A stretch of 20,273 nucleotides of DNA, taken from the IMG/VR virus record IMGVR_UViG_3300030110_000327, positions 1 to 20,273 of that record; one strand, written 5' to 3'. Below the pieces are notes generated by a model. It was given only the letters and a program-made list of their open reading frames with translations. It was not told the origin of the DNA and made no database searches. This DNA is from a virus. Positions 857-20,273 of this stretch are shown piece after piece. Every line of letters starts with the position of its first letter. The first letter of the stretch is position 1. A program made the translations under genes and the position numbers.

Positions 857-3800
857 TCAATAACCTTTTGCAATAAAATCAAAGGTTCTTGATACCCCAG
901 AACCCCCAGAATTGATAAAAGCTACATCAAAACCTGTATTTGTCTTATTTGTGATAGTATAAGTATCTCCAGACGACATATTTTGCACTGCAAATCCAAG
1001 TGATGGAACAGTTAAATATGCTTGTGCATAAGTGACTGATTTAGTTCCTGTACCAGAAACTATGTTATTACCAGATTCAATTCTATCTTCCATATCTAAA
1101 GTGACTGATAATGCTGTCACAACAGGTGTTGCACTGCCATCAATAGATGTTAATTTTAATCTAAATTTATAATATCTAGCTAAATAATCTCCTACAACAA
1201 AATCTTGGAAAGGTGTAAAAGTGACACCATTTGGAGATATTGAAATTTGTAGTTCTGCTGAACAATTAACCTCTGCATCTCCATCAAATAACCCTGCTCT
1301 AGAATCAAAATTTCCTGATACTGTATCAAATAAATCATCAATATTGATACTAGATTGTGTTATTCCAGCACTTATAGTAGTTTTAACTCTTGAACCAACA
1401 TCAATTGTATTGTCAAAATTATAAAATCCTTCTTTTGCTAGATTTCCACTTGTTGTTCCAGAATCAAAATTTCTAGTTGTATAATCATCAAAATTACCAG
1501 TACCAGAATCAAATAATTGTGTATCAGCTAGACTTAAAGCATTTACAACACTATAATTTTTTGAAACTAAAACATTATCTTTAACACCAGTAAAATTAGG
1601 ATTTTGTGTTGATGATGTCACAAAATTAAAATTACCAATTGTATCAACAGCAACATAAACAACAGTTGCATTAACACTTGGTAAACCCAATTTATCTCTA
1701 GCTTTGATTAAATAAGCTCCTGTTTTAGCAGGTACAACTACTGATGTTGCTGGTCTTGATACCTTTTTAACAATAGGTATAGAATTAGACCATGCCGCAT
1801 TGGCAGTTGCATTTTGGTATCTTAATTCATAATAACTTAAATCTAGTACATCAACAGCAGTCCAACTTAAAAAAGCATCTAGACCAACAATATTACAAGC
1901 AAAGTTTTCTACATCTGGTGGTGGGTCAGATAAACCAACAACAGTATGACTAGAAGATATTGTTGATGAATTAACTCCATAGATGTTTACACCTCTTGCT
2001 CTTACTTCATAACTAGCTTTATCAATTACATTTAAGAACTCAAATTTTGTTCTAGCACCTCTACCTATTTGTTTAAAAGTATCGCTTACAGCATTACCAT
2101 TAGCATCTGTTAATTGTTTTATTTCTATCTCATATAATTCTGTAAAATTATCTGTTGCTGCAGTTAAATTTATAACAAGTTTTACGATTACAGTACCATC
2201 ATTATAAGACACAAGTTCATCTGTTAATGTAATTGCTTGAGGTGGAGATACAGATGTAGATTTAGCTAAATTTGTAGCTTTACCACTTGATATTGTAGAA
2301 TAATCACTTGTTGAAAAATTATATACTGCACTAGCTATTTCTCTAAATTCTGTATTTATAACTAAAGATGTATTATTACCAATGCCAAAACTCCAATCTA
2401 CCAATTGAAAAGTTTTATTTGTCCATCCCATTCTTTCATTTGTTATATTTACAGTATCTCCAACATTTAATTGAAAAGCTGTTAAATCAAATGTAGCAGA
2501 AAAAGAAATTTGCTGTCTTGCTTTTAATAATTGTATTTTAGATAATCTTTGACACATTCTACTTGAGTTTGTGTAAGGATAATCAAATGTTGCATAAATT
2601 CTTTCACTATTATCTTCTGACTCAAATGTAGAGTTTGTTAAAAATGGATAATTTTGAGGTTGATAATCATTAGCTGGTTCAGAATAAATACCCTTAACAG
2701 CATTAAATAACTCTTTTTTACTTATTCTTGTGTTTACCTCTATTCCACTTCTTAAATTACTTTCATTTAAAGTGACAGTTGGAGATGAATAAACTGCTGG
2801 AACAAGTTTAAATTGTCCATTTGAATAAACTAAAAATCCACCTAAAGAAGTTAGTAAATTTTCTATAATTGTTTTAGGTGTTGATTGTAAAGTAAATGTT
2901 CCATTACAAGTAAATCTTTTTTCTGTCCCTGTAGGATTAGTGACATTAACTGTTTCATCACAAGTATTTGCAGTTGATATAAAATTTGTATCATTAATTT
3001 CTTCTATTGTTGTTTTTAAACCAAATTTTGTTTCTGTTAAATAATCTCTAATTATTAAACTTGGATTATCTGAAAAAGTTGTAAAATTAAATTTTTGTGT
3101 TGTACTTCCTGTGACAGAAGTTAAATTTATTGCAGAACCAGAAACACAGTTGGAATAATTAGTTGCTAGTTTTATGGTATTATTATCTACTTTTATTACA
3201 TAATAAGTAGTAGTATTTGTTAGACCACCAATAGCAGTATTCCCATTAACATCGTAATAAGCCCTGTCAAAAGTAGAAAGCCCATGTGAAGATAAGGTAA
3301 TTGTATTATTAGCTGTAGATACATTAGTAGAATTAGCAGTAAAGCTAGTAGCTCTTGGGTCATATACTTTTTTTCCTTTTGTTATACAAGAAAACATTGG
3401 AACACCATTAGGGTAAACATCAGAATCAAATTGTAATCTTAAATATACATAAGCTTTCCCCTGTATTCTATGTGCAGTAGTCCATTGTGATACATCAGAT
3501 ACTAAATTTGCATCTGCTACCTGATCATCATTTCCAAAATGTTTTTTAACTCGTAATTTTCCCTCATACCTATCTCCAGAAGTAGGTGTCCAAATAGGAA
3601 TACCATTACTATCATTACTTGTGGTTTCTAAACTTACTGAATCTTCTCCTAAAAAAATAGTTGGTATATCATCTACTTCATGTCCAGATACAACAACAAC
3701 CATGTGTAAAAATTCATTTGTACTTGATGTTGTTTCTGCATAAACAATAGTACCACCAACTCTTGTTTGTCCATAAATAATTCTGTGTGGAGCAGTTGGA

Positions 3801-4156
3801 GATTTAGTTGTCATTGTGACACCAGCTTCAAGACCTGTACCAAATGATGGTGGATCAATTTTAGGTGCTAATGCTTTTCCTACTGCACCCATAACTAAAG
3901 ATGAACCAACACCTACGATTATTCTTGCCGCAGTGACTCCAAATTTATTAGCTAAAAAAGAACCCTCTGCCGCAAGTGGTCCTGCAAAATAAGCAACAGC
4001 CGCAGTAATAACTAATTGACCAATATCACTACTTAAAAGGTCTGTTGCTGTCTCTACTGCTTTTTTTGTTTTTACAATAGGTCCTACATAATTATATGAA
4101 TCTTCATAAATAATATTATCATTTATATCATATACAATTTTATTATAAATTTTCAT
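857..4156 (-). CDS. J-like tail tip / host-specificity protein, 1099 aa
   Basis: Large central tail-tip protein expected to form the distal end of the siphovirus tail and contact the host receptor, like lambda gpJ or RcGTA Gp15. I chose ATG 4156 over one 8 codons upstream: it has GGAGAA 5 nt upstream and forms an ATGA overlap with the preceding peptidase-like gene. Visible parts: a hydrophobic Gly/Ala-rich stretch at about residues 45-95; a hub-like region beginning PHRIIYGQTRVGGTIVYAET; an inserted beta domain at about 270-358 with ITLSSHGLS and TTYYVIKVDNNTIKLA, a module seen in many phage tail proteins; a fibronectin-III-like region in the second half (PPDVENFACNIVGLDAFLSW); and a C-terminal region with repeated FDSG/NFD motifs ending TFDFIAKGY. 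The C-terminal part is the likely receptor-binding segment (inference). It is the last gene before a 103-bp break. Confidence 0.88.
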   Translation of the reverse strand: MKIYNKIVYDINDNIIYEDSYNYVGPIVKTKKAVETATDLLSSDIGQLVITAAVAYFAGPLAAEGSFLANKFGVTAARIIVGVGSSLVMGAVGKALAPKIDPPSFGTGLEAGVTMTTKSPTAPHRIIYGQTRVGGTIVYAETTSSTNEFLHMVVVVSGHEVDDIPTIFLGEDSVSLETTSNDSNGIPIWTPTSGDRYEGKLRVKKHFGNDDQVADANLVSDVSQWTTAHRIQGKAYVYLRLQFDSDVYPNGVPMFSCITKGKKVYDPRATSFTANSTNVSTANNTITLSSHGLSTFDRAYYDVNGNTAIGGLTNTTTYYVIKVDNNTIKLATNYSNCVSGSAINLTSVTGSTTQKFNFTTFSDNPSLIIRDYLTETKFGLKTTIEEINDTNFISTANTCDETVNVTNPTGTEKRFTCNGTFTLQSTPKTIIENLLTSLGGFLVYSNGQFKLVPAVYSSPTVTLNESNLRSGIEVNTRISKKELFNAVKGIYSEPANDYQPQNYPFLTNSTFESEDNSERIYATFDYPYTNSSRMCQRLSKIQLLKARQQISFSATFDLTAFQLNVGDTVNITNERMGWTNKTFQLVDWSFGIGNNTSLVINTEFREIASAVYNFSTSDYSTISSGKATNLAKSTSVSPPQAITLTDELVSYNDGTVIVKLVINLTAATDNFTELYEIEIKQLTDANGNAVSDTFKQIGRGARTKFEFLNVIDKASYEVRARGVNIYGVNSSTISSSHTVVGLSDPPPDVENFACNIVGLDAFLSWTAVDVLDLSYYELRYQNATANAAWSNSIPIVKKVSRPATSVVVPAKTGAYLIKARDKLGLPSVNATVVYVAVDTIGNFNFVTSSTQNPNFTGVKDNVLVSKNYSVVNALSLADTQLFDSGTGNFDDYTTRNFDSGTTSGNLAKEGFYNFDNTIDVGSRVKTTISAGITQSSINIDDLFDTVSGNFDSRAGLFDGDAEVNCSAELQISISPNGVTFTPFQDFVVGDYLARYYKFRLKLTSIDGSATPVVTALSVTLDMEDRIESGNNIVSGTGTKSVTYAQAYLTVPSLGFAVQNMSSGDTYTITNKTNTGFDVAFINSGGSGVSRTFDFIAKGY

Positions 4157-7510: not shown

Positions 7511-9523
7511 TTATGCTCCGAATGCTTTGCTAAATTTACCACCTCTTTGCTTTGCATTTGCAACAGCTGATAATGTTGATTGTTGTATTGCTGGTAGCAT
7601 ATTCATTACTTCTGCTCTAACAGTATTTGTGACACCAACAGCAAAGTTTAAATTTTGTACTATATTTACTCCACCACCTCCACCCATAGCAGATTTAGTA
7701 TTTGAATTATTTAAAATTTTACCTGTTGCATTAGGTACAAATAACTCTGGACCTCTTTCCCCAACAAGAGTTGGAGTATTAGGTTGAACTGTACCACCAC
7801 TTGCATTAGGAACAACATGACCTACATCTTTTTTACCACCAAAAATAGAACCTAAAACATTAGAAAGAAAATCATTACCAGAAGAACCTTTTCGCATTCT
7901 TTCTTCTATTTTTCTTTGTATTTCATCAAGTACCATAATTTTGAAAATCATTTTTTGAATTTCAATAATCATTTCTCTTAAAATATTTGTAAAGTCTAAA
8001 GTAGCTAATTTACCTCTAGCCATAGCATCATTAATCTTATCTCCTACATTTGCAAATGCACTACCTACACCACTTGCGGCTTTATCTAATTTATTTTGTA
8101 ATTCTATTTGTTCAAATAATAAATCATTTTGTTTTTTTACAGCTTCTATTTGTGCGTCTGCTGTTTTTCTAGCTTCTACTCTAGCTAAATCAGACATACT
8201 GTTCATTTTAGCCAAGAGTGCATCTTCAATTTTTCTTATCTCATTTATTTCTCTTAATTCTTTTTGAGTTTTACCTAAATCTTCTATTTCTCTACTAACT
8301 CTTAAATCTCTTTTTTTAGCATTATCTTCTGCTAGTTTTTCCAAATCAGTTAATGCTTTTTTCTCATCATTTATACTAGCTTTTTTTCTATGAAGATTTC
8401 TTTCTTCTGCATCTCTTAAGAGTTCTTGTTGTATTCTTAATTCTTTAAGTAATTCTTGTATTTCTCCAATTCTTTCTTGATCTTTTGTTAATGTTTCTGC
8501 TAGTGGGTCATGATTTTCTGGATCAAGACCAGCCATTTCAATATTAAGTTTTTTAATTTCTGCAGAAATACCACTTAAAGTTTTTATTGCACTTGCATCT
8601 TTATCAAAAGAATCCATTTTTTCTGATAAAAAATTTAAAGACCTTGTTAATAAATCTACTGCCGCCCTACCAACTTTAGTCTGTTCAAAAAACATTGTAA
8701 ATTTTTCTTTAACAGAATCTATTGCACCAGCTAAACCTTTTGCCGCTTTAACACCAGCACCACCTACTTGTTCATTTAATGCTTTTAAAATAATTTCTTG
8801 TGCTTCTACTCTACGACCAGTTAAATCTAAAACTTTTATTTGTTCTTTTTGTGCTTCTGTAAATGATACACCTACTCGTCTTAAAGCACCTAATCCAACG
8901 ATTGGCTCCTCTAATGCTTTACCTAATTGTGTTGCACCTGTTTTTAAATCTCCAAAACCAACTTCTGCTAAATCTTGTGTTAATCTTAATGCTTCTTTAA
9001 AAACATCTCCTTGTACAGATTTAAAAGTAAGTAAGATACCTGCCGCATCTCTAACTTTTTGTGTACTTGCTAATGTTTGAATACCAATCTCTTTTGATAA
9101 ATCTTCTATTTCAGCTAAACTTAAACCTGCCGCACCACCAGTTGCTTTTAAAATAGCTTCTAATTTTAAAAATTGTTGTTCTGCTCTACCAACAACACCA
9201 ACCATAGCTTTTAGAGCAAATGTTAATGCCGCAATACCAACAGTAAGTATTGCTGTTTTTAAACCAACATTTCCTATAATAGTACCTAAAGATGTAATTC
9301 TACCAGCAATTGGTCCTAGTGGTCCTTGTATTGCCGCAATAGATTGTGATGTTCTTCTAAATTGTTCTTGTATAGTTTTTTGTCCAGTAGCTGTTTTTTT
9401 ATTTATGGCAGTTGTTTTTTTACTAAATTGATCTAACTTTTTTTTACTACCATCAATTTGAGTAGTAAAACCTTTGGTGTTAGTTCTTAATTCTACAAGT
9501 ATTGTTGCTAAATTTGTTGCCAT
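7511..9523 (-). CDS. Tape measure protein, 670 aa
   Basis: Tail length ruler and scaffold of the tail tube. N-terminal helical and Lys-rich part, then a hydrophobic Gly/Ala segment at about residues 68-115 (ending LKAMVGVVG), a conserved block around 120-280 typical of prophage tape measures (LEAILKATGG, GIQTLASTQKVRDAAGILL, LGKALEEPIVGLGALRRVG), a long coiled coil rich in Glu/Lys (about 300-480), and the familiar C-terminal motif TLVGERGPELFVP followed by poly-Gly. By the usual ruler relation (about 1.5 A per residue) the tail would be near 100 nm. The start ATG 9523 has no recognisable ribosome binding site and lies 2 nt after the stop of the frameshifted chaperone reading frame, so its translation may be coupled to that product. 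Confidence 0.92.
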   Translation of the reverse strand: MATNLATILVELRTNTKGFTTQIDGSKKKLDQFSKKTTAINKKTATGQKTIQEQFRRTSQSIAAIQGPLGPIAGRITSLGTIIGNVGLKTAILTVGIAALTFALKAMVGVVGRAEQQFLKLEAILKATGGAAGLSLAEIEDLSKEIGIQTLASTQKVRDAAGILLTFKSVQGDVFKEALRLTQDLAEVGFGDLKTGATQLGKALEEPIVGLGALRRVGVSFTEAQKEQIKVLDLTGRRVEAQEIILKALNEQVGGAGVKAAKGLAGAIDSVKEKFTMFFEQTKVGRAAVDLLTRSLNFLSEKMDSFDKDASAIKTLSGISAEIKKLNIEMAGLDPENHDPLAETLTKDQERIGEIQELLKELRIQQELLRDAEERNLHRKKASINDEKKALTDLEKLAEDNAKKRDLRVSREIEDLGKTQKELREINEIRKIEDALLAKMNSMSDLARVEARKTADAQIEAVKKQNDLLFEQIELQNKLDKAASGVGSAFANVGDKINDAMARGKLATLDFTNILREMIIEIQKMIFKIMVLDEIQRKIEERMRKGSSGNDFLSNVLGSIFGGKKDVGHVVPNASGGTVQPNTPTLVGERGPELFVPNATGKILNNSNTKSAMGGGGGVNIVQNLNFAVGVTNTVRAEVMNMLPAIQQSTLSAVANAKQRGGKFSKAFGA

Positions 9524-9525
9524 AA

Positions 9526-9744
9526 TTAATCTGGATATTGCCTCATTAAATCTTCCATTCCTTTTCTATCTAATGGATTTTTATTGTTTCCTTTACCATT
9601 CTTTAAATGATAACCATTCAAAGCTGATACAAATTCTATTACTGATAAATCCCAAAATACTTTTGGGGAGAATCTTAATACACCAAGACCTATTTCTAGG
9701 TATTGCTGGATTGGGTATTTTTCTGCTCGTTCTCCCCCTGTACT
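9526..9744 (-). CDS. Frameshift extension of the tail assembly chaperone (gpT-like part), 72 aa
   Basis: Open in the -1 frame relative to the chaperone gene upstream, with no ATG before the conserved part; the frame is closed upstream by a TGA at about 9757-9759, just before the slippery site. The peptide contains YLEIGLGVLRFSPKVFWDLS, then VIEFVSALNG, closely resembling the short chaperone encoded after g10 in RcGTA (GLGVLRLSPxEFW, rcc01693-like). It would be made as a 183-aa fusion: 111 residues from the zero frame through SPL, then STGGERAEKY and onward. The stop TAA is at 9526-9528, two bases before the tape measure start. In tailed phages the frameshifted form usually bridges tape measure and tail tube subunits during assembly. 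Confidence 0.8.
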   Translation of the reverse strand, partial: STGGERAEKYPIQQYLEIGLGVLRFSPKVFWDLSVIEFVSALNGYHLKNGKGNNKNPLDRKGMEDLMRQYPD

Positions 9745-10076
9745 AAAGGGGAATCTTCATTCTGTTTGTCACTACCTGTAAAAAGAGTAGATAAAACATT
9801 TGCTCCGATAACTGCTGAATCTACCAATCCAGTTTGCATAATCATATCTCCAACAGATGGTTGCGTACATTTTGTACCTGCACCTTGCAGTCCTTCATGT
9901 AAAACTACTAATATATCTTTAAATGAAAATGTATTAGTAGAAACACTTGCCGCAACATCCATAATAGATTTGCCAGTTTTGTTTTCTATATTTACTATTG
10001 ATTCAAAGGTAAGTCGGAAAGTTCTTTCTTTATCTCCCAACTTACCTTTAATTTCGCCTTTATACTGATTTGCCAT
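9696..10076 (-). CDS. Tail assembly chaperone (gpG-like, zero-frame product), 126 aa
   Basis: Short helical protein located between the tail tube and tape measure genes, the standard site for tail assembly chaperones. It begins MANQYKGEIKGKLGDKERTF and has SIVNIENKTGKSIMDVAASV and FKDILVVLHEGLQGAGTKCT, which match the RcGTA Gp10 type of chaperone that recalls GTA tail tube-binding proteins. The start ATG 10076 has AAGGA 6 nt upstream and overlaps the end of the 112-aa gene by 17 nt. The last 15 codons lie downstream of a slippery heptamer; most ribosomes would end here at TAG (9696-9698), a minority would continue in the -1 frame to give the longer fusion. Confidence 0.8.
   Translation of the reverse strand: MANQYKGEIKGKLGDKERTFRLTFESIVNIENKTGKSIMDVAASVSTNTFSFKDILVVLHEGLQGAGTKCTQPSVGDMIMQTGLVDSAVIGANVLSTLFTGSDKQNEDSPLVQGENEQKNTQSSNT
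9744..9750 (-). promoter_or_regulatory. Predicted -1 ribosomal frameshift site CCCTTTA
   Basis: On the coding strand the heptamer C-CCT-TTA fits the canonical X-XXY-YYZ form in the zero frame of the chaperone gene (Pro CCT, Leu TTA). Sliding back one base keeps pairing at CCC and TTT and opens the frame of the gpT-like part. The site lies just after the only -1 frame stop that would block the fusion. A TCCCC / GGGGA inverted repeat with a 9-nt loop spans the heptamer and the following bases, and could pause ribosomes or compete with slippage. Confidence 0.75.
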
Positions 10077-10398
10077 TGGTGTCCTTTTCTATCAATTGTT
10101 CAGTTAATGTTTTTTCTTTCGGTTCACTTTTTTTAAGTTTTTTTAAAGTTTTATTTGAAGCAATTATATCACTTGTTTTTGGATTCTCACAAGTAATCTC
10201 TGCTCTGCTTTGATAAAACTGAACCTTTTGAACAATTAATTCTTCTACACCAATTGTGACCTTATCATAGGGTTTGATAGGAATATCTTTTCTTGTTTCG
10301 ACAGTTATTACGCCCTTTCTAGCAACCTTGTAAAAACCATTATAGGACTTGCCTTGAAATTTTATTTCTATCACTTTAAACCCATTTGTATATTCCAT
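10060..10398 (-). CDS. Hypothetical tail-region protein, 112 aa
   Basis: Not recognised. The N-terminal two thirds look like a small beta-rich domain (MEYTNGFKVIEIKFQGKSY, VTIGVEELIVQKVQFYQS), the C-terminal third (from about residue 78) is a charged Lys/Glu tail likely to be disordered or helical. No signal peptide or membrane segment. A strong AGGAG lies 6 nt ahead of ATG 10398. It sits between the tail tube protein and the chaperone, overlapping the latter by 17 nt, so a role in tail tube assembly is likely (inference from position only). Confidence 0.72.
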   Translation of the reverse strand: MEYTNGFKVIEIKFQGKSYNGFYKVARKGVITVETRKDIPIKPYDKVTIGVEELIVQKVQFYQSRAEITCENPKTSDIIASNKTLKKLKKSEPKEKTLTEQLIEKDTNGKSV

Positions 10399-10415: not shown

Positions 10416-10847
10416 TTACGCGTTAGTATAAGTCATTGTTCCATTTGATTCAAGACTGATAGAGAAAGTTTCTTCTCCATTGTATTCTCCTGCTCTTTCA
10501 TAAGATGTTACGATAAATGCACCTTTTACATTTGAACCATCTCCAAAAACCAAATCATAGTTTAATGAGTCCCCAGTAAATGCTGCACCTCTAACATTGT
10601 TTTCTCCATTAGAGTCAGTAAATACTCCACTTGCTGATAAAGACATACTTCTAATACCTCCATTAGGTAATAAAGCTCTTCCAAGATCATTTCCTGCTTG
10701 TCCATCAAATGTTGTTGAATCTTTTGTTGTGACATCTACCATTTCTCCATTGATTGTCATAGATGTACTTCTCATACCACCAATAGTTATTGGTGTTCCA
10801 CTACTATTTTCTTTTAATAAGAAAGCTGAACCTCTATTTGCCGCCAT
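10416..10847 (-). CDS. Major tail tube protein (TP901-1 family), 143 aa
   Basis: Subunit of the siphovirus tail tube. Length and motifs match the Phage_tail_2/TP901-1 family: GGMRSTSMTINGEMVDVTTK near residues 23-42, GGIRSMSLSASGVFTDS near 63-79, VRGAAFTG, NYDLVFGDGSNVKGAFIVTS near 96-115 and the C-terminal block YERAGEYNGEETFSISLESN. These residues form the beta-sandwich ring of the tube. The start ATG 10847 has AAAAGGAGA upstream, one of the best ribosome binding sites in the window, fitting a highly made virion protein. It corresponds to RcGTA Gp9. Confidence 0.93.
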   Translation of the reverse strand: MAANRGSAFLLKENSSGTPITIGGMRSTSMTINGEMVDVTTKDSTTFDGQAGNDLGRALLPNGGIRSMSLSASGVFTDSNGENNVRGAAFTGDSLNYDLVFGDGSNVKGAFIVTSYERAGEYNGEETFSISLESNGTMTYTNA

Positions 10848-13591: not shown

Positions 13592-14791
13592 TTAAGTTGT
13601 TATTGTTGTAAGAGCTTCTGGTAGAACAACTTGTCCACCAACTCTTCTTCTTGCGATATATCTAACATTACCAGAAGATGCTTGTGTAAAAGGATCTCTC
13701 ATAATTGATAGATTAACTCTATCAACAATCATATAACCTCTTTTAAAGTCTCCAAACATAACTGGTTTTGTACCACCTGCAACATTAGGCATGTCAGTAG
13801 CTTCAACAATAGAGTGTCCTAAAATATTAGAACCTATACCCATACCATAAATTCCTGGCTGAAATATATATTGTCCTCCACCATCTTTAAGCTTTCTAAC
13901 CGCTGATACTGTTGATCTGTTCATAACGAATGTTCCATTTTTAGAATATTCAGTTTTAACATTGTGTGCAGCACTGATAAGAGAATCGCCATCTAAAGCA
14001 CCACCACCTTTTGCAACATTATTAACACTTGCATTAGATAGTATTCCTTGTGGTTTTCCTACAGAGTTGCCAGATACAAACGCATTACCTTCTGCTTTTG
14101 CAAATTGATCTACAAATTCAGAGTTCATTTCTGCTTCAAGATTGAAAACTGAATCTTCAAGTTCTTGTTCAGAAATATCAACAAGTGCATATAACTCATG
14201 CGCTGGAATTTCTTCCAAACCAACAGCATATCCAGTTGTTTCAGTTCTAGCACCCTCTTCGGCTACCCATTGTGCCGCAAATTGACCAGTTCTTTTTGGA
14301 ACTTGAATACTTCTATTAGTTGTTGATCTTACTCTTGCGATTGATCTAATTGGAGAAAACTCAGTCACACCTTTGATTATTTCTCTCACATATTCTGGTG
14401 GAGCTAAATAACCTGCAGTATTATCGTTAGACACAGTTAATACTTTAACTTCGTCTGGAGATAAAGAGTCTTTTCCTTTTCTTAACCATTTATCAAAAAC
14501 TTTAACTTGCATAGATTCTACTGGAGAACCTTTACCAAAGTCTGGTCTTGATACAATAGTTTCTAATCTATCTAGTTGAGCTTTAGCTTGATCGTTAGCT
14601 TTTTTCTGTGATGCTTCCATATCAGAAAACTTATCTAAATCAGCTTCGATTTTTTTAAGTTTATCTTCTACGATTGGATCAGCAGAACCTTTGCTTTCAA
14701 TCTCTTTGATTCTTTTATCGTTAGTTTCTTTAAAAGCCTCAAAAGTTTTTCCTAAAGTTTCAACTGCAGATTTTACTTCATTATTATCCAT
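13592..14791 (-). CDS. Major capsid protein, HK97 fold, 399 aa
   Basis: Main head shell subunit. The first ~95 residues are charged and helical (LKKIEADLDKFSDMEASQKK), matching the delta scaffolding domain that the neighbouring protease removes. The HK97 core then starts: LTVSNDNTAGYLAPPEYVRE near 118-137, FSPIRSIARVRST, VPKRTGQFAAQWVAEEGART near 164-183, the long spine region EIPAHELYALVDISEQELED, EGNAFVSGNSVGKPQGIL near 234-251, and a C-terminal FGDFKRGYMIVDRVNLSIMRD. Length is typical of delta-domain capsids. AAAGGAAA lies about 7 nt before ATG 14791. Placed between protease and accessory protein as in HK97 and RcGTA (Gp5). Confidence 0.95.
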   Translation of the reverse strand: MDNNEVKSAVETLGKTFEAFKETNDKRIKEIESKGSADPIVEDKLKKIEADLDKFSDMEASQKKANDQAKAQLDRLETIVSRPDFGKGSPVESMQVKVFDKWLRKGKDSLSPDEVKVLTVSNDNTAGYLAPPEYVREIIKGVTEFSPIRSIARVRSTTNRSIQVPKRTGQFAAQWVAEEGARTETTGYAVGLEEIPAHELYALVDISEQELEDSVFNLEAEMNSEFVDQFAKAEGNAFVSGNSVGKPQGILSNASVNNVAKGGGALDGDSLISAAHNVKTEYSKNGTFVMNRSTVSAVRKLKDGGGQYIFQPGIYGMGIGSNILGHSIVEATDMPNVAGGTKPVMFGDFKRGYMIVDRVNLSIMRDPFTQASSGNVRYIARRRVGGQVVLPEALTTITT

Positions 14792-16984: not shown

Positions 16985-17205
16985 TAATGCAAAGTAGTAT
17001 TTAGTGGTTTAATTAAATCTGTAAAATCTATACTTTTTGTTGCATATACATAACTTGCCATGTGTACAGCATCTAATTCTCTTGTAAATGGACCAATATC
17101 CAAACAAAGTGTAAAACACATATTATCGTCTTGTTGTATTGATATGTTTGAGTTTAATTTCATCATACCTAAATCTTCTAATAATTTTTTTTGTTTTTTG
17201 TTCAT
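16984..17205 (-). CDS. Hypothetical small protein, 73 aa
   Basis: Not recognised. Lys-rich start (MNKKQKKLLEDLGMMKLN), a central stretch with two cysteines (NMCFTLCLDIGPF) and a C-terminal part without clear motif (SYVYATKSIDFTDLI). No signal peptide or membrane helix. The ATG 17205 overlaps the portal TGA (ATGA) and its own TAA overlaps the lipoprotein start, so it is probably translated by coupling. It may correspond to the small gene between portal and protease in related phages (as g3.5 in RcGTA), by position only. Confidence 0.65.
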   Translation of the reverse strand: MNKKQKKLLEDLGMMKLNSNISIQQDDNMCFTLCLDIGPFTRELDAVHMASYVYATKSIDFTDLIKPLNTTLH

Positions 17206-19202
17206 GATTTTAATGGGTGTCCACTTGGTAATAAATCTAAATCAAATTTACCACCTTTGAATCTTCCTGTTCTTACTGCATATAAAAAAGCATTAACTCT
17301 TGCATATGCCCATTGTTCTTCGCTAGTCACATTTGGTCTTACAGACCCTGGATTAGTTCTATAAGCACCTACACCTCGTCTAAATACTGCACTTAACATT
17401 CGTAGTGTCACTTTCTTTCCTTTTTTATCTCCATGTTTTTCATTGTGATCTTCTACTTTTTTAGCTAAACCTTTTTTAACTGCTGCACTTACTGATTTTT
17501 CTTCAATATCAATTTCATAAAACTTATCTCTTTCTCTATCTAATTGGTTTCTTACTTTTCTTGACCAACTAAATCCTGCATCGCCACCCCATAATGCCCA
17601 AGCTATTCTTCCTGCAGATGGATAACCATCTTGACCTTGTCTAAAACCTTGTCCTTGTTTATCTACCTCATGACGACTAAAGAAACTGAACATTCTTCTT
17701 ACTGTACTTGGAGATAAACTTACCTTTCTTATAATTTGATTTGCTCTAGTTGCACCAACTTGTGTACCACCTCTACCAAATTCTTTTCTCCAAGCTAATC
17801 CTCTTTTTGCTTCTTCTACCATAGCATCTGTAGGTGTTGTATTTATGTCACTAATTGCTTTTACAAGTTCATCAGTATCATCATCTTGGTTTTCTATTTG
17901 TATAGCTTCTTCTTCTCTTTCATCTACAACTTCTGGTGGTTTTACAACTTCATCTACTTGGTCAGCAAATGATAAAGGCATTAAATTACTTGGTACTAAT
18001 AATTCATCAGCACCACTTATAGAATCAAAACCTAATTGATGTCTTGCTTCGTTTCTAGTTAGAATACCATTTTGTACTCCACCTATAACAGATTCAAAAA
18101 CTCTTTTCCTTTGTTCTGCGATTGCAGGTATAGAATCATAATCAAATTTTAAATAAAGGTCACTTCCAAATTGAGGTGTTAGCCATTCGTTTAAATCTGA
18201 TTGTAGTCTATCTAGTAAAGGAATAATTGTTTCGTTGTATAATGCAAGTTTAGCTTCACTAAAGTTTGAATAAGTTTGTGTATCTTTAATACCTATAAGC
18301 TGACTTGGTACACCAAAAATTAATGCAATATCTTTTGCACTCATATTTTTAAATTCTAAAAAATCCATTTCTTTTGGACTTAAACCCATTTCTTTCCAAT
18401 CAAAATCGCCCTCTAACAACATAGGTTTACCAGCATTATTTACACCAGAAAACCTTTGGTTAATATCATTGACCAATTGATTTCTTTGTGTGTCGCTTAA
18501 TTGCATACTCCCACCACTATCATCTTTAGGATTAAATATAACAGCACCACTTGGTCTAGCACCATTTGATAATAAATTTACATTATGTTTGTTAGCTAGG
18601 TTGTAGCTATCAATATCTATACTGGCAGTTTGTATTGGCGATAATCCATAATAATCATCATTTGGATTAAATAATTTTATTTGTTTAATTTGTGAATCTC
18701 CACTAGCTTGATCTATTTCATATCTGTTTATTACTTGTCCACCTATTATATAATTAAAAGCTGATGGGATAGCTTTTGTACTTGGTTCAATTCTAATTCT
18801 ATCTGGTCTTAAAGGATAAAGTTCTGTTGGTTGTTGTTTGTCTGGACCACTTCTTAAAATATAACTATTACCACTTATTAATAAATATGAAATTACACTG
18901 ACAAGAAATTCTACTTTTCCTTGAGTGGGGTTCGGATTTTCTAATAAATTTAAAAGTTCGTGATCTTCTAATTCTTGACGACCTCTAAATAAATTTAAAT
19001 CTACTCTACTTGAAGCATTCGCTATTTCATTTATACATCTATAAACGATAGCATTTGAGCTATAACCCTCTTTTACTAAATCGGTATAGTTAGTTTTCTG
19101 TTCTACATTATAACCTAACCCATTATAGTAAACTACTGGAGCTTCCTTTTTACTATACTTTTGCGAAGCAAAAGTTTTTTTTATTTTTTGAAATATATTC
19201 AT
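17202..19202 (-). CDS. Portal protein with C-terminal two-domain extension, 666 aa
   Basis: Twelve-fold ring at the head vertex through which DNA is packaged. Residues ~25-420 form an HK97-type portal (PF04860-like): YSSNAIVYRCINEIANASSR, VISYLLISGNSYILR, TELYPLRPDRIRIEP, NDDYYGLSPIQTA, then DFLEFKNMSAKDIALIFGVP and NEWLTPQFGSDLYLKFD. An acidic linker (about 425-450) leads to an extension uncommon in portals: domain A at about 456-556 (EEAKRGLAWRKEFGRGGTQV, FFSRHEVDKQGQGF, DGYPSAGRIAWALWGGD) and domain B at about 561-666 (LRMLSAVFRRGVGAYRTNPG, EQWAYARVNAFLYAVRTGRF, DLDLLPSGHP). I recall both modules from other phage head proteins. I chose ATG 19202 (AGGA upstream, 11 nt after the terminase stop); a GTG at 19229 would add nine residues. 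Confidence 0.92.
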   Translation of the reverse strand: MNIFQKIKKTFASQKYSKKEAPVVYYNGLGYNVEQKTNYTDLVKEGYSSNAIVYRCINEIANASSRVDLNLFRGRQELEDHELLNLLENPNPTQGKVEFLVSVISYLLISGNSYILRSGPDKQQPTELYPLRPDRIRIEPSTKAIPSAFNYIIGGQVINRYEIDQASGDSQIKQIKLFNPNDDYYGLSPIQTASIDIDSYNLANKHNVNLLSNGARPSGAVIFNPKDDSGGSMQLSDTQRNQLVNDINQRFSGVNNAGKPMLLEGDFDWKEMGLSPKEMDFLEFKNMSAKDIALIFGVPSQLIGIKDTQTYSNFSEAKLALYNETIIPLLDRLQSDLNEWLTPQFGSDLYLKFDYDSIPAIAEQRKRVFESVIGGVQNGILTRNEARHQLGFDSISGADELLVPSNLMPLSFADQVDEVVKPPEVVDEREEEAIQIENQDDDTDELVKAISDINTTPTDAMVEEAKRGLAWRKEFGRGGTQVGATRANQIIRKVSLSPSTVRRMFSFFSRHEVDKQGQGFRQGQDGYPSAGRIAWALWGGDAGFSWSRKVRNQLDRERDKFYEIDIEEKSVSAAVKKGLAKKVEDHNEKHGDKKGKKVTLRMLSAVFRRGVGAYRTNPGSVRPNVTSEEQWAYARVNAFLYAVRTGRFKGGKFDLDLLPSGHPLKS

Positions 19203-19213
19203 ATTTTTTTTTC

Positions 19214-20273
19214 CTATGTTATTCGCCACATCGGTTTATTGTTCCGATTTAAGCTATCGTATAATGCACTTATTGTATCTACTTGGTCGTCGTGTACATC
19301 GTTTAATCCTGTAAACGAACAAATCTCCTGTACCATGTCGTTTGTAAACTTTTTTCCTGTCGGAAGCAATACCCTACCATCATTCCATGCGGCACTCACT
19401 GGTTGTGCCCTTGTAAACTTATCTCCACGAGCAGGTTTTTCTATAACCCTTAAATTATGTTCTCTTTTTAAAAAGTCCACTATACCCCTTTCAGTACCAC
19501 CTATATAACAGTGGATAGGAACATCGTATTTGACTTGAAAATTTTTTAGTACAGACGCAAATTGTGATGCTTCTGTTTGACCTCTCCACCAATCTATAAT
19601 ATATAATTTTTTATTGAACCACTTTCCTACACCTACCACACTATAATCAGAATACGATTTCGTACTATATGCAAAATCTACTGACAACCCTAAAATGCCT
19701 CCTTCTGGCTCTTTGTCGTAAAAGTTTGCATCTGCAAAGACCCTACCACCTTTGACATAAGGTTTTTGTTGATACATAGATGTGAACCAAAAATCTCCAA
19801 CCTGTTTTTTTCTCTCGATTAAAGTATCTGTATCATACCTATCTTTCCATAGAGCTTCCCCTATCTCTCTACCCATTGGGTCATTTGTTTCTGCAATAGC
19901 AGGTAAAGATAATACCTCCCACTGCTCCCCTCCCTTTTGAGCATGTGTAATTAAATGACCAGCAAGGTCATCTGGATGCCACCTAGTCATAATGATTATG
20001 ACAGAAGCATTTGGACTTAATCTAGTAGATGCAACTGACTGGAACCAATCGACTGTTTTATCTCTATAAACTTGTGACATAGCTTGTTCGTTGTTCTTTA
20101 CAGGGTCGTCTATAATCAACATATCAGCACCCCTACCAGTGATACCACCACCGACACCAACACAATACATATAACCACCTTGTTCTGTTTCCCAATTTCC
20201 TTGAACATTAACTTTCATGTTTCTTTGGACACCATAATGTTTCGGTACTACATCATCAAATACCTCTCTAGCT
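19214..20273 (-). CDS. terL: Large terminase subunit, C-terminal ~350 aa (5' end outside window)
   Basis: ATPase-nuclease that cuts concatemers and drives DNA into the head. The frame is open to the right edge (visible part begins AREVFDDVVPKHYGVQRN), so the Walker A region is missing and the Met at 20218 is internal. Seen here: the Walker B-like strand DMLIIDDPVKN near 20125-20095, the coupling motif IIIMTRWHPDDLAG near 20000-19960, and the RNase H-like nuclease with LSVDFAYSTKSYSDYSVVGV (first acidic residue), YIGGTERG, and HDDQVDTISALYDS near the C-terminus. The family is Terminase_6/TIGR01630-like. The stop TAG (19214-19216) precedes the portal ATG by 11 nt. A small terminase, if present, would lie outside the window. 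Confidence 0.94.
   Translation of the reverse strand, partial: AREVFDDVVPKHYGVQRNMKVNVQGNWETEQGGYMYCVGVGGGITGRGADMLIIDDPVKNNEQAMSQVYRDKTVDWFQSVASTRLSPNASVIIIMTRWHPDDLAGHLITHAQKGGEQWEVLSLPAIAETNDPMGREIGEALWKDRYDTDTLIERKKQVGDFWFTSMYQQKPYVKGGRVFADANFYDKEPEGGILGLSVDFAYSTKSYSDYSVVGVGKWFNKKLYIIDWWRGQTEASQFASVLKNFQVKYDVPIHCYIGGTERGIVDFLKREHNLRVIEKPARGDKFTRAQPVSAAWNDGRVLLPTGKKFTNDMVQEICSFTGLNDVHDDQVDTISALYDSLNRNNKPMWRIT

Follow-up and report, generated by a model that had tools for sequence, protein, structure and literature searches.

The window analysed here, by which we mean the whole stretch of marine phage DNA at its full length of 20,273 bases, contains an overlapping pair of open reading frames in a -1 relation on its minus strand, set between the genes for a tail tube protein and a tape measure protein. 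The tail tube protein (10416..10847, minus strand) belongs to family PF06199 and is related to Rcc01691 of RcGTA (PDB 6tba, E 4.8e-19), while the tape measure protein (7511..9523, minus strand; 670 aa) is recognised from its PHROGs tape measure matches, the best of which has E 6.3e-23. Further neighbours in the window follow a gene transfer agent (GTA)-like order: a distal tail protein, another tail protein, an NlpC/P60-like protein and a hub protein. A 112-aa open reading frame (10060-10398, minus strand) lies between the tail tube and chaperone genes and overlaps the chaperone start; it has neither a Pfam family nor a convincing PHROG.

The zero-frame member of the pair, referred to below as G (9696..10076, minus strand; 126 aa), is a tail assembly chaperone of the GTA-gp10 family, and matches PF11836 (Phage_TAC_11, 'GTA-gp10') with E 2.4e-16 and 60 bits against a curated cut-off of 27.8. 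The -1 frame segment, T (9526..9744, minus strand), runs from STGGER to QYPD over 72 codons followed by a TAA, and matches Phage_TAC_6 (PF09550) with E 6.4e-11 and 43 bits against a curated cut-off of 23.4. The two frames meet at the slippery heptamer C_CCT_TTA (9750-9744, minus strand), which is in register with the zero-frame reading frame 9696-10076. The -1 frame is closed just 5' of the heptamer by a TGA (9759-9757) and is then open until the TAA at 9528-9526, 2 nt past which the tape measure ATG (9523) begins. These positions are those of the original prediction, which also held that T has no ATG before its conserved part; GTG and TTG are absent as well ahead of the conserved GLGVLRFSPKVFW part in the 72 codons past the heptamer, and the related sequences described below agree in having no plausible start.

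In the predicted fold of G most of residues 8-101 have a pLDDT of about 95, and residues 102-126, where the slip falls, form a low-confidence tail; the confidence of the T model is low (65). In structure comparison the G model resembles predicted viral proteins, some of which are named tail assembly chaperone. A sequence search of G against the PDB gave no match and a Foldseek search of the G model against the PDB no significant one, VIA-align returned low scores only (lactococcal phage p2 ORF12, at Z 3.4, was tied with unrelated chains), and tblastn against phage records produced one weak match for G and none for T.

Conservation of the heptamer and of the -1 segment

The presence of a slippery heptamer is not in itself informative. 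CCCTTTA occurs 2 times on the two strands of the window compared to 3.2 expected, and an in-register XXXYYYZ of some kind is found at 80 of the 5126 codons of the window's genes, none of the 80 being CCCTTTA. Since the heptamer alone is unremarkable by chance, the evidence for its role must come from conservation, which was evaluated in 92 heptamer-region sequences consisting of the window and 91 contigs from many metagenomes, obtained by viral contig scans. The original prediction had named conservation of the heptamer in related phages as a check: CCCTTTA is present in register in 91 of the 92 sequences, a count which does not represent 91 independent events because the relatives share ancestry, and the remaining sequence has CCCAAAA, which is also slippery. 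The -1 segments of the relatives are about 55-83% identical, and the codons CCT and TTA are invariant in all 76 unique sequences. Part of this conservation reflects protein constraint, since the heptamer and the overlap are dual-coding. The CCCAAAA relative (L142:1812-1818) has a downstream stem that is weaker against recoding (112/1000).

A fixed distance separates the heptamer from the zero-frame stop in 92 of 92 sequences, and from the upstream stop to codon +20 the -1 frame is devoid of ATG, GTG and TTG, the exceptions being one ATG 57 nt upstream (1 sequence) and one internal TTG (2 sequences). An internal ATG or GTG is present from codon +24 onward in 27 of 92 sequences, which is too late to make the whole T domain. 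Substitutions in the part that codes for T alone fall on T codon positions 1, 2 and 3 with 12277, 6414 and 17701 pairwise differences respectively, and the T segment thus evolves as a coding sequence in its own frame. These observations bear directly on the possibility that a sequencing or assembly error, or the decay of a gene, has split one frame in two, which a single contig could not exclude by itself but which is refuted by the relatives, since both the frame relation and the fixed stop distance recur across the 92 sequences (91 from contigs of many metagenomes), and by the coding constraint still acting on T, so that its probability is negligible.

The downstream RNA stem

Folding of the window RNA places an 8-bp stem around the zero-frame stop, in which GGGGAGAA (9737-9730) pairs with UUCUCCCC (9672-9665). 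The stem begins 6 nt past the heptamer, the spacer occupying 9738..9743 on the minus strand, and its 3' arm, TTCTCCCC, lies within the T codons for F-S-P; the stop codon itself, TAG (9696..9698, minus strand), and an inner hairpin, ACCTA-GAAA-TAGGT (9688..9701, minus strand), are both inside its loop. In E. coli, a strong stimulator brings frameshifting above background at 61 of 64 X_XXZ_ZZN motifs, C_CCU_UUA does not belong to the three failures, and stimulatory structures generally begin 5-8 nt downstream (PMC4066793).

The window stem has z = -2.85, and its 8 bp are unchanged in all 25 window-type sequences. For 45 of 51 unique sequences, no more than 23 of 1000 synonymous recodings of the 3' arm gave a stem as strong as the one observed, and the window is identical at this arm to the sequence that scores 23/1000; in the other 6 of 51 (59-112 of 1000 recodings) the stem is not clearly above chance. 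The 3' arm also uses the rare serine codon TCC, found once in the ten window genes that were counted, and TTC, which accounts for 9% of phenylalanine codons. In a divergent subgroup the 5' arm is in place and reads GCGGAGAA or GUGGAGAA, and its 3' partner, UUCUUCGC or UUCUCCAC, is found at a different, nearer site; the GCGGAGAA/UUCUUCGC stem has 97.2% of cells paired, and in 3 of 16 sequences both sides of the stem have changed, from C-G to U-A. Because the window-type stem never varies, the covariation evidence consists of this one base pair and the contrast between the subgroups. Taken at the level of sequence, these patterns argue that the stem has been selected as RNA, and its probable role is that of a stimulator of frameshifting. 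The inner hairpin, which shows no covariation beyond G-U changes, may follow from the codons for YLEIG alone.

Probable programmed frameshifting and its alternatives

The original proposal of a G/GT-type chaperone pair is supported by the membership of both proteins in GTA-chaperone families, the conserved heptamer, the conserved stem downstream of it and the coding-type evolution of T. Production of G and GT by a programmed -1 frameshift at CCCTTTA explains the region far better than any rival reading, and we regard it as very probably correct. Most ribosomes would continue to the TAG at 9698-9696 and produce the 126-aa G, while a minority, pausing at the stem when CCT occupies the P site and TTA the A site, would slip back by one base, giving a predicted GT product of 183 aa in which 111 residues ending in DSPL are followed by STGGER and the rest of T. 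If the analogy with lambda holds, the G part would coat the tape measure protein, the T part would recruit the tail tube protein, and both would leave before the tail is completed.

The alternative that survives best, though it is improbable, is that T is a separate small gene which is translated by coupling from a non-standard start (e.g. ATC or ATA) inside G, as in the GTAs of the Rhodobacteraceae, whose homologues of T start independently and mostly overlap the g10 stop. A GGGGGAG run does look like a ribosome binding site, but it stands far from the first AT-rich start-like codon, the relatives have no ATG, GTG or TTG where the T domain begins, and coupling would account for neither the invariant in-register heptamer nor the stem; among GTAs, moreover, a local start and a heptamer occur as alternatives to each other. 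Still less likely, to the point of being very doubtful, is that the fusion is made by transcriptional slippage or at some shift site other than CCCTTTA. Frames related in this way can be joined by slippage in AT-rich genomes, but the runs at the window site are of just 4 C and 3 T, and the site is an in-register tandem-slippage heptamer with a stem at the usual spacing.

Frameshifted tail chaperones, for which we return here to the programmed -1 shift, have long been known, and the window is a further case, in GTA-type protein families. The -1 frameshift of the tail assembly genes of dsDNA phages was treated by Xu, Hendrix and Duda 2004 (as cited in PMC3556154), the lambda mechanism and frameshifted tail chaperones are reviewed in PMC5009743, and further frameshifted tail chaperones are covered by PRFect (PMC10885494) and found in phiCbK (PMC3556154) and in most Rhodobacter capsulatus phages (PMC8601537). 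The window resembles lambda gpG/gpGT in the position of the pair between the tail tube and tape measure genes, in the -1 relation, in a slippery heptamer that comes shortly before the first frame ends and in a second domain that has no start of its own; unlike lambda, it has GTA-type domains (PF11836/PF09550), the heptamer CCCTTTA and a long-loop stem that encloses the zero-frame stop. Caudoviricetes sp. ctOK67 (MW202613) has CCCTTTA in the same chaperone pair, but it is a distant relative only and its pair is annotated as two separate chaperone genes.

Several named phages came into view through other genes of the window. The C-terminal residues 466-675 of the portal protein (17202-19229, minus strand) are 60% identical to the start of an open reading frame of Roseobacter phage CRP-821 that is annotated as major capsid protein and comes after a separate portal gene. 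In the same phage (L322:9040-9046) an in-register AAAAAAC stands at the end of the annotated chaperone, and behind it an unannotated -1 frame stays open as far as the tape measure region, which is likely to be a missed frameshift. The best named relative of the window's major capsid protein (13592-14791, minus strand) is that of Rhizobium phage RHph_X2_25, at 48% identity; in the chaperone region of this phage the second domain is in the -1 frame, and no XXXYYYZ site was found there.

Proposed modes of g10.1 expression in chromosomal gene transfer agents

The window is expected to share its chaperone families with RcGTA g10/g10.1 and other Rhodobacteraceae GTAs, and it has the tail gene order and a related tail tube protein of the RcGTA type, which raises the question of whether it is itself a GTA. 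We reject this identification on account of a hub with no TIM-barrel domain and a long tape measure. The GTA TIM-barrel PF13547 is absent from the window hub (857-4156), in which only PF13550 is matched, with E up to 0.01, while the hubs of the two chromosomal GTAs examined match PF13547 with E below 1e-148; the tape measure has 670 aa in the window against open frames of 179-277 aa in the GTAs seen. Only phage genes are recognised in the window, and none of seven long related contigs, which are fragments, contains an integrase.

The class around a rhizobial GTA was sampled for chromosomal GTAs in 289 genomes, of which 37 have PF09550, and two small orders were then searched. At 14 chromosomal alphaproteobacterial loci (L229, L230, L232, L233, L240, L243, L250, L291-L293, L316 and L318-L320) an in-register C_CCT_TT(C/T) lies exactly at the FPW-like motif of T, the zero-frame stop follows shortly 3' of the heptamer, and there is no start just ahead of T (g10.1), the nearest approach being one GTG far upstream in L229. 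For two of the 14 the entire locus was examined: each holds a complete cluster of the RcGTA type, which has the GTA_TIM and Rcc01698_C domains and adjoins host-type genes. Among the first seven loci, L230 and L232 have a strong fold 3' of the heptamer; in the remaining five the downstream fold is weaker, is differently placed or was left at a first look. Loci with other slippery motifs, namely GGGAAAG (L234, L242, L253), AAACCCT (L239, L255-L257) and GGGAAAC (L258, L259), were left out of the 14. The frameshift-type GTAs, for example L230 and L243, thus resemble the window in having a PF09550 T in the -1 frame behind an in-register heptamer with no start just ahead of it, but differ from it in the location of the heptamer directly at the FPW motif, in a short tape measure and in a GTA_TIM hub. 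Because the GTA heptamer is about 11 codons nearer to the T domain than that of the window's group, common descent of the site itself cannot be claimed.

The Rhodobacteraceae GTAs, chosen because their tail tubes share 81-92% identity with the RcGTA tail tube, present the other arrangement. In all 29 readable members (a thirtieth, truncated, was left out) g10.1 has its own ATG, GTG or TTG, mostly overlapping the g10 stop, and none of the 29 has a relevant heptamer, one TTTGGGC in another frame and one GGGGGGC far upstream being disregarded; they differ from the window in both respects, and the window's tape measure is far longer. The statement in the original prediction that the two RcGTA chaperones are separate reading frames is therefore supported for the family of RcGTA but not for GTAs at large, given the 14 heptamer loci. 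The R. capsulatus genome was outside the sample, in which the best tail tube identity is 92%, so that the statement about RcGTA rests on its family. Both modes are represented in the order of L243, though not in the same genomes. Since the frameshift arrangement is also found inside chromosomal GTAs, the suggestion that a fused form in the window would link GTA-like and lambda-like arrangements has to be given up as far as any unique link is concerned.

It is likely, on these comparisons, that many chromosomal alphaproteobacterial GTAs frameshift at CCCTTT(C/T) and that in the Rhodobacteraceae lineage, to which RcGTA belongs, a g10.1 with its own start took the place of the frameshift, so that one gene family would be expressed in two interchangeable modes; that the frameshift is the older of these is a guess. 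Searches of open-access papers, with few subscription journals among them, for frameshifting in combination with gene transfer agents gave no statement about g10/g10.1. Wherever g10.1 has no start codon, it would escape annotation pipelines and surveys of GTAs that rely on annotated genes. The finding assigns the GTA chaperone families to the G/GT frameshift class, with the model GTA as the suggested exception. What deserves following up is the divide among chromosomal GTAs between frameshift and independent start. Given how short GTA tails are, a comparison of the two kinds would provide a natural test of the role of the G:GT ratio in tail length.
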